A DNA stretch of 64,000 nucleotides from Candidatus Rokuibacteriota bacterium. Lineage in GTDB: Bacteria > Methylomirabilota > Methylomirabilia > Rokubacteriales > CSP1-6. Of the stretch, positions 57,889-63,291 are shown in pieces. A program made the translations under genes and the position numbers. Position 1 is the stretch's first letter. Every line of letters begins with the position of its first letter. The notes under the pieces are model-generated. The model did not search any database, was not told where the DNA came from, and saw only the letters and a list, made by a program, of their open reading frames with translations. Location of the stretch: assembly GCA_030647435.1 (NCBI GenBank), contig JAUSJX010000098.1, positions 1 through 64,000 on the forward strand, in the 5' to 3' direction.

Positions 57889-59439
57889 CTATACCGGCAT
57901 CACTCCGTGCTTCTTCCAGGGGCGGTCGACCTTCTTGGTGGCGGCCATCTCGAGGGCGCGGATCAGGACGGGCCGGGTCTCCCGCGGGTCGATGACGTCG
58001 TCGATGAAGGCGCCGGCGGCGGCGATATAGGGGTTGATGAGCTTGCGGAACTCCTCGACCCGGCTCGCGCGCTCTTCGTCGGGGTTGGCGGCGGCGGCGA
58101 TCTCCTTGCGGAAGATGATGTTGGTGCCGCCCTCGGGACCCATCACTGAGATCTCCGCCGTAGGCCACGCGACGATCAGGTCGGGTTCGTATGCCTTGCC
58201 GCACATGACGAAGTAGCCTGCGCCGTACGCCTTGCGCACCACCACCGTGACCTTCGGCACCGTCGCCTCGCTGACGGCGTAGAGCATCTTGGCGCCGTGT
58301 CGGATGATCCCCTGCTTCTCGACCTTGGAGCCGACCATGAAGCCCGGGACGTCCTGGAGGAACACCAGGGGGATGTGGAAGGCGTCGCAGAGCATGATGA
58401 AGCGCGCGGCCTTGTCGGCCGAGTCCACGTCCAGCGCCCCGCCCAGCACCATGGGCTGGTTGGCGACGATGCCGACGGAGCGGCCGCCCAGGCGGGTGAA
58501 GCAGGTGATCAGGTTCTTCGCCCAGCCCGGCTTGATCTCGAAGAAGTGTCCGCGGTCCACGATGGCCGCGATGACCTTCTTCATGTCATAGGCCCGGCGC
58601 GCGCTGTCGGGCACGATAGAGAGCAGCGCCTCGTCCATCCTGTCGGCGGGGTCGTCGCTCGGCAGGATCGGCGGCTGCTCGAGGTTGGACCCCGGGAAGT
58701 AGGACAGGTACTCCTTGATCGCGTCGATGCATGCGGCGTCGTCGGCCACTTCGAGATCGGCCACGCCGGAAATCTCCGTGTGGACCTTGGAACCGCCCAG
58801 CTCCTCCGCGGTGATGTCCTCGCCGACGATGGCCTTGACGAGCGGCGGGCCGCCCAAGGCCATGTGGCTCGTGCCCTTGACCATGGGCACGAAGTCCGAC
58901 AGCGCCGGGATATAGGCCGTGCCCGCCGCGCCCGGGCCCATCATGGCCGCGACCATCGGCACGACGCCCGACATGATGGATTCTTCCCGGAAGAGGAACC
59001 CCGACTGGGCGAAGGTGGAGCCGATGGCCTCCTGGATGCGCGCGCCCGCCGAGTCGATGAGCCAGATCATCGGCATGCGCTTGGAAAGCGCGGTCTCGCG
59101 CGCGCGGTTGCACTTAACCTCGGCCGTGCGCCCCATGGAGCCCGCCATCACCGTGAAGTCGTAGGCGATCAGCGAAGCCGGCCGGCCGTTGATCTTGCCG
59201 AAGCCCGTCACGACGCCGTCGGCAGGCGTCTCCTTGCCCTTCATGGCCGGCGAGATGTTGGCGTGGGTCGCGAGGAGCCCGATCTCGTAGAAGGAGCCCG
59301 GGTCGAAGAGGCGGTCGATCCGCTCGCGGACCGTCAGCTTGCCCTCAGCGTGCTGCTTGGCGATCGCTTCCGCCCCGCCCATGGCGAGCGCGCGCACGCG
59401 CCGCGCCTTGAGATCTTCAACCAGATCCTTCATGCCCAT
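57889..59439 (-). CDS. Acyl-CoA carboxylase carboxyltransferase subunit, PccB/MmdA type
   Basis: 516 residues, full length. Two crotonase-like halves: GRPASLIAYDFTVMAGSMGRTAE near 85-107 and the GPGAAGTAYIPALSDF oxyanion loop near 168-183 in the first, and FLQDVPGFMVGSKVEKQGIIRHGAKMLYA with RKAYGAGYFVMCGKAY in the second. The subunit moves CO2 from carboxybiotin to an acyl-CoA such as propionyl-CoA, acetyl-CoA or a methylcrotonyl-type substrate. The carrier and carboxylase genes lie just upstream. Substrate cannot be settled from sequence. Confidence 0.92.
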   Translation of the reverse strand: MGMKDLVEDLKARRVRALAMGGAEAIAKQHAEGKLTVRERIDRLFDPGSFYEIGLLATHANISPAMKGKETPADGVVTGFGKINGRPASLIAYDFTVMAGSMGRTAEVKCNRARETALSKRMPMIWLIDSAGARIQEAIGSTFAQSGFLFREESIMSGVVPMVAAMMGPGAAGTAYIPALSDFVPMVKGTSHMALGGPPLVKAIVGEDITAEELGGSKVHTEISGVADLEVADDAACIDAIKEYLSYFPGSNLEQPPILPSDDPADRMDEALLSIVPDSARRAYDMKKVIAAIVDRGHFFEIKPGWAKNLITCFTRLGGRSVGIVANQPMVLGGALDVDSADKAARFIMLCDAFHIPLVFLQDVPGFMVGSKVEKQGIIRHGAKMLYAVSEATVPKVTVVVRKAYGAGYFVMCGKAYEPDLIVAWPTAEISVMGPEGGTNIIFRKEIAAAANPDEERASRVEEFRKLINPYIAAAGAFIDDVIDPRETRPVLIRALEMAATKKVDRPWKKHGVMPV

Positions 59440-59446
59440 AGCGGCT

Positions 59447-59962
59447 TCAGGCCTTGGGCAGACGGTAGTAGAGCACCATGTCGGTCGGCGCCGGCGAGCC
59501 CTTGGTCATGGTCACCATGGTCGCGACCTCGCTGCGGTGATGGGTCGCGTGGTTGACCACGTGCTGGAGGAGCTGCCAGAGCGGCTGGCTGAAGGGCTTG
59601 CCGTCCGTCGCCTTGTAGTCCAGCGTCCTCTTGAGGTCTGCCGTCCCGAGGGCCGTCATGAAGGCCTTCTGCTCGGCCTCGAGCGCGTTCCAGCTCTTCC
59701 TGAGATCAGCCAGGCTCGCGAAGTCGGCGTCGCCGTAGAGCTTGGTCGGCGAATTTCCCTTCCAGCGTTCGAGCCAGATCCGGTCGGCGCCGTAGATGTG
59801 GGCGAGCATGCCCTTGAGCGTCGGGAAGCTGAACTGCTTGCCGACTTCCTTCCTGGCCGTATCTTCGCCCAGCGCCGCCACCTCGTCGAAGTGCTTGCGG
59901 TTGCCCCACCAGTGATAGCCCCAGATACCCCGAATCAGCTCACGGTCCAGCTCGAGCTCCAT
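59447..59962 (-). CDS. DinB/YfiT-fold metal-binding protein
   Basis: 171 residues. The four-helix DinB fold with the metal-binding histidine triad His55 (GMLAHIYGAD), His138 and His142 (VVNHATHHRSEV). Characterised relatives are nickel- or zinc-dependent thiol transferases using bacillithiol, mycothiol or glutathione. Here it lies between the carboxyltransferase and biotin carrier genes, eight and ten bases from them, so it is likely co-transcribed. Its role in acyl-CoA carboxylation, if any, is unknown. Confidence 0.88.
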   Translation of the reverse strand: MELELDRELIRGIWGYHWWGNRKHFDEVAALGEDTARKEVGKQFSFPTLKGMLAHIYGADRIWLERWKGNSPTKLYGDADFASLADLRKSWNALEAEQKAFMTALGTADLKRTLDYKATDGKPFSQPLWQLLQHVVNHATHHRSEVATMVTMTKGSPAPTDMVLYYRLPKA

Positions 59963-59972
59963 GGTCCGCCTC

Positions 59973-60188
59973 CTAGTCCAGGACGGCGACCGTGTCGCCT
60001 TCCTGCACGGTCTGCCCCTCGGCCACCTTGATCTCCTTCACCTTGCCGGCCCGCGGCGCCTCCACCGGGATCTCCATCTTCATGGACTCCAGCACGATCA
60101 CGGGATCTCCAGCTGCCAGCGAGTCGCCGACCTTGCTCGTGATCTGGAAGACCACGCCCGTGATGTGCGCCTTGACGTCTTCAGCCAT
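59973..60188 (-). CDS. Stand-alone biotin carboxyl carrier protein
   Basis: 71 residues, only the biotinyl domain. The biotinylated lysine is Lys37 in LESMKMEIPVEA (33-44). The ATG overlaps the end of the biotin carboxylase gene by eight bases (ATGGCTGA). A separate minimal carrier, rather than one fused to the carboxylase, is seen in several anaerobic and archaeal systems. Confidence 0.93.
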   Translation of the reverse strand: MAEDVKAHITGVVFQITSKVGDSLAAGDPVIVLESMKMEIPVEAPRAGKVKEIKVAEGQTVQEGDTVAVLD

Positions 60189-61524
60189 TGAACGCTCCTT
60201 GTTCGACCATCTGGGTATGGGTGCGTCCCTCGCGGAACGCCGCGCTTCGCATCACGCGCAGGTGGAACGGAATGGCGGTCTTGGGCCCCTCGACGACGAA
60301 GGCTCTCAACGCCGCCTCCATGCGGGCGATCGCTTCCTCGCGCGTCGCGCCCGCGGCCACCAGCTTGGCCAGCAACGGGTCGTAGTGTACCGAAACCTGG
60401 CAGCCTTCGGCGACCCCGCTTTCGAGGCGGATGCCGGGGCCTTGGGGCGGGCTCCAGCGTGTAATCGTCCCCGGCGAGGGCATGAAGTTCTTGGCCGGGT
60501 CCTCAGCGTAGATGCGGCACTCGATGGCGGCGCCGCGCTGGAGAATATCCTCCTGGCGCCACGGCAGGGCCTCCCCGGACGCCACCTTTAACTGAGCCTG
60601 GACGAGGTCGAGCCCCGTCACCTCTTCGGTCACGGGGTGCTCTACTTGAAGCCGCGTGTTCATCTCCAGGAAGTAGAACTCCTCACCCTGGACGATGAAC
60701 TCCATCGTCCCGGCGTTGACGTAGCCGACCGACCTGGCGCCCTGGACGGCCGCCGCCGTCAGGCGCTCCTTGAGGCCCTGCGGCAGGCACGGAGCCGGGC
60801 TCTCTTCGATGAGCTTCTGGTGGCGCCGCTGGATCGAGCACTCCCTCTCGTGCAGGTGCACCACCTGCCCGCCTCCGTCGCCAAAGACCTGCACCTCGAC
60901 ATGGCGCGGCTCGGTGAGATAGCGCTCCACGAAGAGCGCGGCCGAGCCGAAGGCCGCCTGCGCGCGGCGCTCGGCCGTCGCGTACGCCTGCGCGAGCGCC
61001 GATTCGTCTGCGACCTTGACCATGCCGATACCGCCTCCGCCTGCCGCGGCCTTCAGCATCACCGGGTAGCCGATCTCCCCCGCAGTCTGCCGGGCCAGGT
61101 CGAGCGAGGCGACGGGGCCTTCGCTGCCGGGCACGACGGGCACGCCGGCCCAGAGCATCTGGCGCCTCGCACCGACCTTGTCGCCCATCTGCTGGATCAC
61201 GCGCCATGGAGGCCCGACGAAGACGAGCCCCGCCTCCTCGCACGCCTTGGCGAATCCCCAGTTCTCGGAGAGGAAGCCGTAGCCGGGATGGATCGCCCCG
61301 GCGCCTGTCCGGCGCGCGGCCTCGAGTACGCGCTCGACGCTGAGATAGCTCTCCCGGGCGGGCGCGGGGCCGATCAGGACGGCTTCGTCGGCTTCACGCG
61401 CGTGGGGCCAGTCGGCGTCGGCCTCGGAGTAGACGGCGATCGTGCGGATACCGAGGGCCCTGCAGGCGCGGAAGATGCGGCGGGCGATCTCCCCGCGGTT
61501 GGCGACGAGGACGCTCTCGAGCAC
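60181..61524 (-). CDS. Biotin carboxylase subunit
   Basis: 447 residues. Carboxylates biotin with ATP and bicarbonate. VLVANRGEIARRIFRACRALG is the N-terminal domain signature, AAAGGGGIGM the ATP-grasp glycine loop, and FLEMNTRLQVEHPVTE the catalytic part near residue 285. It is as long as AccC and lacks the carrier domain found in PccA/MccA. The GTG at 61524 lies two bases after the stop of the upstream ferritin-like gene. Confidence 0.95.
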   Translation of the reverse strand: MLESVLVANRGEIARRIFRACRALGIRTIAVYSEADADWPHAREADEAVLIGPAPARESYLSVERVLEAARRTGAGAIHPGYGFLSENWGFAKACEEAGLVFVGPPWRVIQQMGDKVGARRQMLWAGVPVVPGSEGPVASLDLARQTAGEIGYPVMLKAAAGGGGIGMVKVADESALAQAYATAERRAQAAFGSAALFVERYLTEPRHVEVQVFGDGGGQVVHLHERECSIQRRHQKLIEESPAPCLPQGLKERLTAAAVQGARSVGYVNAGTMEFIVQGEEFYFLEMNTRLQVEHPVTEEVTGLDLVQAQLKVASGEALPWRQEDILQRGAAIECRIYAEDPAKNFMPSPGTITRWSPPQGPGIRLESGVAEGCQVSVHYDPLLAKLVAAGATREEAIARMEAALRAFVVEGPKTAIPFHLRVMRSAAFREGRTHTQMVEQGAFNG

Positions 61525-61526
61525 GC

Positions 61527-62498
61527 TCAGGCGGGCTGGGACTGCTCGATCTTGACCAGATCGAGGGCGCCGACCCGCCATCCGGCCTCGCCCTGCTCCC
61601 AGCGGGCGTTGAGCGTGACGGTGCCGCGCGCGCCCTCGAGCCGATACTTCACGATGCGGTGGCGGCCCAACTTCGCGAAGGCGGCCATGTGGTGCCGCGC
61701 GAGACGGACATCGTTGAGGGCCAGCAGCAGGGCCGCGTCGGGCGCTGCGTCGAGAAACCGGCCCAGCGCGACGCCGTCGCAGGCGACGAGAGCGTCGCCG
61801 AAGGCGCGTGCGCGCGTCTCGAGGTCCTCCGGGATGGACCACTTCTCACCGGCGCGCTCGAGACGGATGAACTCGCTCGCGTCGTCCGATATGGGCGGAG
61901 TCGCGCTCGCGTGCGCGCCCGCAGTCGGAGGCACCCCCTGCCCCGCCACGCCAAGGGCGGCCTCGAGCATCCCCGCAAGCTTCGCTTGCCAGGCCGCGAC
62001 GCGCGCCTGCACCTCGGGCGCCGCGGCGAGATGGCGGAGGATGGTCTCGCCGGCCCCGATGTGGCGCCGCTCGTCTTCGATGCAGCGGGCGAGAATCCTG
62101 CACGTGGGCGGCTCGTAGATCGGATTGGCGCTCTCGAGGTGCCTCACGTATACGGCGAGCAGGTGCGGCTTGAGCACGCGGTAGACGCCGGCCAGACGCT
62201 CGGCGGTCTCACCCGGCGCCTCGGGGGCCTCGATGGCATCCATGAACGCGACGAAGGTGTCGTTGGCCGGCTCGGATTCCTGGGCGTGAGCGCGCAACTC
62301 CGGCAGCCGCCTGCCCCACGCATCCGTGTGCTGGGCGTTGTCCCAGACGTGGCGGCCGAGCAGGAGCTTGGCCGAGAGCTCAGGCGTGAGCGCGATCCAG
62401 CCGGCCATGATGCGCGTCATGCGCTCGGCGGCGTAGCGGTAGTTGCGGCAGAGGCGGGCGGAGTCGTCCGCCGAGAAGTGACCTTCGAGGATCTGCAT
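61527..62498 (-). CDS. Degenerate ferritin-like protein with C-terminal NTF2-like domain
   Basis: 323 residues. Residues 1-160 are four helices parallel to those of the next gene's product. The second-helix EXXH becomes N54-A-Q-H57, and I find no third-helix glutamate at the equivalent place; E143-R-R-H146 in helix four is kept. After a Pro/Ala-rich linker (about 180-210), residues 225-318 look like a small NTF2/SnoaL-type sheet domain. It may be a non-catalytic partner. Two bases from the biotin carboxylase start. Confidence 0.7.
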   Translation of the reverse strand: MQILEGHFSADDSARLCRNYRYAAERMTRIMAGWIALTPELSAKLLLGRHVWDNAQHTDAWGRRLPELRAHAQESEPANDTFVAFMDAIEAPEAPGETAERLAGVYRVLKPHLLAVYVRHLESANPIYEPPTCRILARCIEDERRHIGAGETILRHLAAAPEVQARVAAWQAKLAGMLEAALGVAGQGVPPTAGAHASATPPISDDASEFIRLERAGEKWSIPEDLETRARAFGDALVACDGVALGRFLDAAPDAALLLALNDVRLARHHMAAFAKLGRHRIVKYRLEGARGTVTLNARWEQGEAGWRVGALDLVKIEQSQPA

Positions 62499-62535
62499 GG
62501 GAATCAGGGCTCTTTGGAATCAGTGCTCTGGGGGA

Positions 62536-63291
62536 TCAGTAGACCTGGGAGCGCTGTGTCGTCTTGATCAGGCGCTCGATCTCCTCGTCGGTGAAGCCCG
62601 CGAGCTTCCGGGCCTCGATCGCGATCGAGATGGGCACGACCTCGTGGTCACCCAGCTGCCTGGCGCCGCCGAGGTTGAAACGTTCGTCGATGGTCTCCTG
62701 GAACTCGATCGCCTTGCGCCGGCGCTCCGGGTCGCCCTCCGTCAGCTTCGTCAGCCACTTCGAGCCCATCCGCACGTGGGTAATCTCGTCGGCCAGCACG
62801 AAGTCCACGGCGCGCTCCAGGATGGGGTCGCCCATTTTCCGGCCGATGTAGACCAGCTGGTTGAAGACGTCGCAGGCCAGGCCCTCGAGGCCCCGGTTGA
62901 CGCCGGCCACGCGCGCGGCGGCGTCCTCGGCGCAGGCGCAGCGCCAGAGGATGGTCGTCTCTGGGTACTCGCCGATGTAGCCGCCGAGGTGCTCGAGGAG
63001 GCGGATGTAGATCTCGACGTGGCGGGACTCGTCCCAGACCTGGCGCGCCATGTCCATGGTGAACTCCCACGGCGCGTCGGGGAAGTCGTAGACACTGCGG
63101 CCGGCGCCCTCCATGGCCTGCATCTCGCCGACCAGGATGCCGTGGGCGCGCTCCTTGATGGACTCGCGGCTCGTCAACTCGGGGAAGGGCGTGAGCCCCT
63201 GGGAGACCTTGCTCTCCGCGACCTCCCGGGCCCGCATCCGGACGAAGCGGTCCTCGCGGGCCAGCTTGTCATACGCGATCTGACGCTCCAT
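62536..63291 (-). CDS. Ferritin-like diiron protein (DUF455-like)
   Basis: 251 residues, almost all helix, no signal peptide. A full diiron ligand set is visible: Glu57 or Glu61 in GEMQAMEG, E88-S-R-H91 in VWDESRHVE, Glu136 in RGLEGLACD and E169-I-T-H172 in ADEITHVRMG. Relatives include DUF455 proteins and the wider group of diiron oxygenases and oxidases. Reaction unknown. It lies 37 bases upstream of the degenerate paralogue on the same strand. A gap of 76 bases separates it from LivH. Confidence 0.8.
   Translation of the reverse strand: MERQIAYDKLAREDRFVRMRAREVAESKVSQGLTPFPELTSRESIKERAHGILVGEMQAMEGAGRSVYDFPDAPWEFTMDMARQVWDESRHVEIYIRLLEHLGGYIGEYPETTILWRCACAEDAAARVAGVNRGLEGLACDVFNQLVYIGRKMGDPILERAVDFVLADEITHVRMGSKWLTKLTEGDPERRRKAIEFQETIDERFNLGGARQLGDHEVVPISIAIEARKLAGFTDEEIERLIKTTQRSQVY

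Follow-up and report, generated by a model that had tools for sequence, protein, structure and literature searches.

The window, by which we mean the whole stretch of DNA that was analysed (64,000 nucleotides), comes from a Candidatus Rokuibacteriota bacterium of the order Rokubacteriales. On its minus strand lie two neighbouring genes for ferritin-like proteins, which we call A and B and which an earlier note had read from the letters alone; both open reading frames are where that note placed them. The genes of a carboxylase follow. The features are listed below, with the fraction of orthologues that keep each group of residues.

62536..63291, minus strand: gene A, an intact DUF455 (PF04305) ferritin-like protein of 251 amino acids with a 2His/4-5Glu metal site
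63109..63126, minus strand: gene A helix 1, with E56 (63124-63126) and E61 (63109-63111), 39/39
63019..63030, minus strand: gene A helix 2, E88xxH91, 39/39
62884..62886, minus strand: gene A helix 3, E136, 39/39
62776..62787, minus strand: gene A helix 4, E169xxH172, 39/39
61527..62498, minus strand: gene B, a degenerate ferritin-like partner of 323 amino acids with a putative C-terminal NTF2-like domain; 39 orthologues
61941..62498, minus strand: gene B residues 1-186, degenerate four-helix domain (aligned by hhalign to the first half of the fused protein described below)
62424..62426, minus strand: gene B E25, the helix-1 Glu, kept in 38/38
62328..62339, minus strand: gene B N54xxH57, where the helix-2 Glu position is lost (38 orthologues scored)
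62169..62171, minus strand: gene B K110, opposite E136 of A when R127..E136 is aligned with R101..K110; Lys in 39/39
62061..62072, minus strand: gene B E143xxH146, both residues kept in 39/39
61542..61829, minus strand: gene B residues 224-319, putative NTF2-like domain (helices and four strands in the model; Foldseek)
60181..61524, minus strand: biotin carboxylase, with a GTG start at 61524, 2 bp after the stop of B
59973..60188, minus strand: biotinyl carrier protein of 71 amino acids, whose gene shares 8 bp with the biotin carboxylase gene
59447..59962, minus strand: DinB-superfamily protein (Pfam DinB, E = 1e-15)
57889..59439, minus strand: carboxyltransferase of acyl-CoA carboxylase (Pfam E = 3e-174; the closest NCBIfam model is mmdA, below cut-off)

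Gene A matches the Pfam model DUF455 at E = 2e-26 and 93.5 bits, above the gathering cut-off of 34.3. This is its only Pfam match, and it has no rubredoxin domain; 3 of 38 orthologues also match the R2-like ligand-binding oxidase model weakly. The 39 orthologues (78-99% identical) all keep the seven residues E56, E61, E88, H91, E136, E169, and H172 (“EEEHEEH”), so the ligand set of a diiron-carboxylate protein (E / ExxH / E / ExxH) is complete in A. These are the ligands that the earlier note had listed, except that it gave the first one as Glu57: residue 57 is a methionine, and the glutamate is E56. Gene A is under purifying selection (dN/dS of about 0.05-0.07), and both A and B have coding-type GC3. 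The ligand motifs of A are common to the DUF455 family, for which we found no described function in the literature. The other DUF455 proteins that we examined are standalone and about 30% identical, and a degenerate partner was seen with none of them.

In gene B, two glutamates of the diiron-carboxylate set are missing in every orthologue, and the site reads E-[CLN]-[HQL]-K-E-H. Position 54 corresponds to the helix-2 Glu of A, and the 38 orthologues have Cys (20), Leu (14), or Asn (4) there but never Glu. The replacement by Asn54 was thus read correctly in the earlier note, and since the column varies, the asparagine itself is incidental. At position 57, most orthologues have His (33), with Gln in four and Leu in one. 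The same note had seen no clear helix-3 Glu in B and had seen E143xxH146 retained; both observations hold in all 39 orthologues, with Lys110 at the helix-3 position. B is also under purifying selection (dN/dS of 0.23-0.26). Because all of the B orthologues are degenerate, the loss of the site is old and fixed, while the protein itself is still under selection.

The register between the two proteins comes from a profile–profile alignment, which pairs E88xxH91 with N54xxH57, E136 with K110, and E169xxH172 with E143xxH146 and is ungapped across R127-E136/R101-K110. The score is weak (E of about 1e-3), but the register is credible because of the spacing of the motifs and the likeness of VWDE-RH to VWDN-QH. 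Aligning B with an intact relative (which has GDEAKH) gave the same register at position 54. That alignment has a gap at the helix-3 position, so the match of K110 to E136, which depends on the A–B alignment, is less certain. B also matches DUF455 weakly (E = 0.0042 and 17.1 bits, below the gathering cut-off), 4 of 36 B orthologues match it at E < 0.01, and the A and B proteins of some relatives have weak mutual matches. Judged by these alignments, B is a distant relative of A.

Intact homologues of B were to count against the proposal of a degenerate partner. We found such proteins only as distant paralogues: a family of 220-amino-acid ferritin-like proteins from the same order (L105-L112 and L123) that are 27-32% identical to B. 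None of the orthologues of B is intact. Since this family is closer to B (E = 3e-8) than A is, an origin of B by duplication of A is not favoured. Distant relatives of B have weak scores with the Ferritin and Rubrerythrin models. Weak NCBIfam matches of B to macrolide phosphotransferase and Wzb phosphatase were far below cut-off and are due to chance.

An AlphaFold2 model of B (pLDDT of 69.5, from an alignment of four rows) has a helical bundle at residues 10-180 and an alpha/beta domain at the C-terminus. Its closest partial folds are TenA, CADD, and chain B of toluene 4-monooxygenase hydroxylase. The C-terminal domain had been called NTF2-like from the letters, and NTF2-like/KSI/AtzH folds are indeed its best Foldseek matches; with a probability of 1.00 but an E value of about 1e-2, in a moderate-confidence model, the assignment is suggestive. 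This region has no Pfam match in B or its orthologues. When A, B, and their profiles were compared with the sequences of solved structures, only chance-level matches came up.

If A and B work together, then they should stay together. In the window, the two genes are on the same strand with a gap of 37 bp. The earlier note would have dropped the pairing if the genes were rarely neighbours; in fact they are adjacent, on the same strand and with A before B, at all 38 of the Rokubacteriales loci that include readable copies of the two. The gap ranges from 11 to 581 bp, and no same-strand gene was called within it at any of the 38 loci. In the 60 genomes that were sampled from the order, both genes are present in 46 and both are absent from 13, while one shows B alone (at a contig end); no A orthologue without B was found where the contig continues. 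The co-occurrence gives P = 3e-12 by Fisher's exact test, which ignores shared ancestry, and as the species do share ancestry, this is not a true probability. A stronger argument is that the flanking genes change while A–B stays: upstream of the pair there may be DNA polymerase IV, other genes, or a liv transporter, which is found in some genomes only and can point either way, and downstream, five genomes have lost the biotin carboxylase gene. In a plasmid collection, there was no gene B, only distant DUF455 proteins.

The pairing also occurs in another form. When the B profile was compared to genomes from other families (388 genomes were searched in all), the single match was in genome G370 (E = 1.8e-17); this reading frame was matched by the A profile as well (E = 8.7e-13). 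The gene is preceded by a GGAGG site, has GC3 of the coding type, and encodes a protein of 466 amino acids. The N-terminal half aligns to the helical domain of B (residues 3-194; hhalign probability 99.1, E = 5e-19), and the C-terminal half aligns to A (probability 97.7, E = 1.4e-12). The fusion is present in 11 of 68 genomes of this second phylum, at 74-92% identity to the G370 copy. In the A-like half, all seven ligand residues are present in each of the 10 fusions with a complete C-terminus. In the B-like half, the first-helix Glu is the sole residue kept of those that align with the B site. The fusion protein has no NTF2-like domain, and we saw no conserved neighbours of the fusion genes and recognised no carboxylase near them. 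A further 386 genomes contained no third lineage with the pair or the fusion; since the genomes sampled cover less than 1 percent of the species in the genome collection, the pair may be more widely spread. The strongest evidence for joint action is this fusion of the same intact and degenerate partners in a second phylum, and it implies that the importance of the pairing does not depend on the operon of Rokubacteria.

Because A and B are never separated within their lineage and are fused elsewhere, they very probably make up one two-part metalloenzyme. Specifically, we think it probable that they are subunits of one heteromeric ferritin-like metalloprotein, with the metal site on A and with B as its degenerate partner. 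Judging from its residues, A would hold a complete dinuclear site of two His and four Glu (plus E61), most likely diiron, and by analogy it is probably here that O2 is activated for an oxidation. (Sites of this type are also used by oxidases, by peroxidases, and in the storage of metal.) B would be the homologous subunit without a site, the structural or regulatory half of a physical complex: it might complete the heterodimer and the substrate pocket, or it might gate a reductase. Its NTF2-like domain may add a docking or small-molecule site. The invariant Lys, Glu, and His of B may form a buried salt bridge that replaces the metal, or they may have another role; if B were purely structural, there would be no need for K110, E143, and H146 to be strictly conserved.

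By analogy, the pair is best read as a heteromeric diiron-carboxylate oxidase or oxygenase with a metal-free partner, working in the manner of PaaA/PaaC. The oxygenase chemistry is by analogy only, given that DUF455 lacks a described function in the literature that we found. The ligands of PaaA are Glu42, Glu72, His75, Asp126, Glu155, and His158 (E..ExxH..D..ExxH), and PaaC is a structural subunit with the same fold as the catalytic PaaA (PMC4498308). An intact A with a degenerate B would have the same design, and the earlier proposal of a catalytic subunit with a degenerate partner is supported by the pattern of the sites and by the adjacency at 38 of 38 loci. A heterodimer of intact and degenerate subunits like that of PaaA/PaaC would be in keeping with this adjacency and with the fusion. 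The likeness is fair as an analogy of design but does not extend to family membership: A has no match to PF05138 up to E = 1, and only 1 of 36 B orthologues matches it (E = 0.003). The NTF2-like domain of B is another difference, and we recognised no equivalents of PaaB or PaaE at the 38 loci, where genes were named by their similarity to the window and by eye.

Bacterial multicomponent monooxygenases have a similar division of labour, in that the alpha subunit of the hydroxylase carries the diiron site and the beta subunit has the same fold without a site. In the structural model, chain B of toluene 4-monooxygenase hydroxylase (T4moH) partly superposes on the helical domain of B. However, A and B are much shorter, and neither matches Phenol_Hydrox. 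No ferredoxin, effector, or reductase gene was recognised beside A–B, and within the conserved block neither a reductase nor an effector was recognised. The pair adds another example of a presumed diiron subunit with a degenerate homologue, and we found none reported for DUF455 in the literature. It also gives DUF455 a concrete unit, either A with B or the natural fusion of 466 amino acids, that can be expressed directly.

Could the pair act on the substrate of the carboxylase that it adjoins? The earlier note had remarked that the pair abuts a biotin carboxylase and had proposed to check the conservation of the neighbourhood. The biotin carboxylase gene is indeed 2 bp from B in the window, and it is the next gene after B at 33 of 38 loci; the carrier gene follows at 37 of 38. 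In Rokubacteria, the adjacent carboxylase is probably co-transcribed with A–B, although this does not have to mean that the two are linked in their chemistry. A monooxygenase of CoA esters (acyl-CoA) that feeds or drains this carboxylase would fit with its being specialised, which it could be, as the same genome encodes a distinct AccD, which scores above the cut-off of its family, and two other close paralogues of the biotin carboxylase. (With a true AccD encoded elsewhere, we do not favour this carboxylase as the genome's sole acetyl-CoA carboxylase.) On the other hand, five genomes (L070, L075, L085, L091, and L093) have lost the biotin carboxylase and kept A–B, and there the first gene recognised downstream of B is that of the carrier; at many loci, the stretch that was read lacks the carboxyltransferase gene; and no CoA-binding feature was identified. 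Given those five genomes and the lack of a recognised carboxylase near the fusion genes, the CoA-ester or amino-acid-derived oxidation that the earlier note suggested is not established, and we consider an acyl-CoA monooxygenase unlikely. A DinB-superfamily gene lies between the carrier and carboxyltransferase genes, and it is retained in most relatives.

A rather unlikely reading is that A stores metal, scavenges peroxide, or is of the rubrerythrin type, with B as a non-metallated cage or partner subunit. A 2His/4Glu site is common to rubrerythrins and ferritins, which is consistent with this, as are the weak Ferritin and Rubrerythrin scores of the distant relatives of B and the Isc cluster that is upstream of the pair in many genomes. 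Yet A itself matches DUF455 only (the weak oxidase matches are those of three orthologues), the rubredoxin domain is absent, and the Isc genes were not seen beside the pair in many other genomes, nor near the fusion.

It is improbable, in our view, that B is not inert and that E25, K110, E143, and H146 make up a second functional centre, metal-free or mononuclear. The invariance of these residues points in this direction, and there is precedent: in the metal-free class Ie R2 proteins (R2e; VPK/QSK variants), metal-binding glutamates are lost, one of them to lysine, and the site, with its lysine among carboxylates, is still functional (PMC11846895), and PaaA has a lysine bridge (PMC4498308). 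B shares the loss of Glu and the replacement by Lys, although it loses two glutamates while R2e loses three, and it lies outside the R2 proteins and comes with an intact partner. But H57 varies among the orthologues, and in the fusion lineage only the first Glu of the cluster is left, so such a centre would be dispensable there.

That A is a complete enzyme by itself, with B an independent protein held nearby by the operon, seems quite improbable: many standalone DUF455 proteins elsewhere do have an intact site (L125, L126, and L139-L142), but every A orthologue on a contig that continues is accompanied by B, and the same partners are fused in another phylum. We give the least credence to a class of two-component oxidases in which a metal-free Lys/Glu/His centre for redox or radical relay in B faces the diiron site of A and the fusion is a derived form that has lost this centre.

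Returning to the proposed heteromeric metalloprotein and its surroundings, we note that an iscS-iscU-iscA-hscB-hscA-ferredoxin cluster (named by eye) lies upstream of A at L066, L067, L069-L071, L073, and others. A second cysteine desulfurase, a serine acetyltransferase, and DNA polymerase IV (also named by eye) are upstream of A in many genomes as well. Rokubacterial genomes also encode diiron-type proteins that resemble AurF (PF11583) and contain ExxH motifs, such as L117:4824-5864 (G000:C78) and L121:4755-5717. Finally, in the 220-amino-acid family of intact relatives of B (L105-L112, L123, L114, and L124; for example, L107:4753-5406), a C-terminal AGIHHAPGC is invariant in all 10 of the members that were aligned, and this tail could possibly be metal-binding or anchoring.
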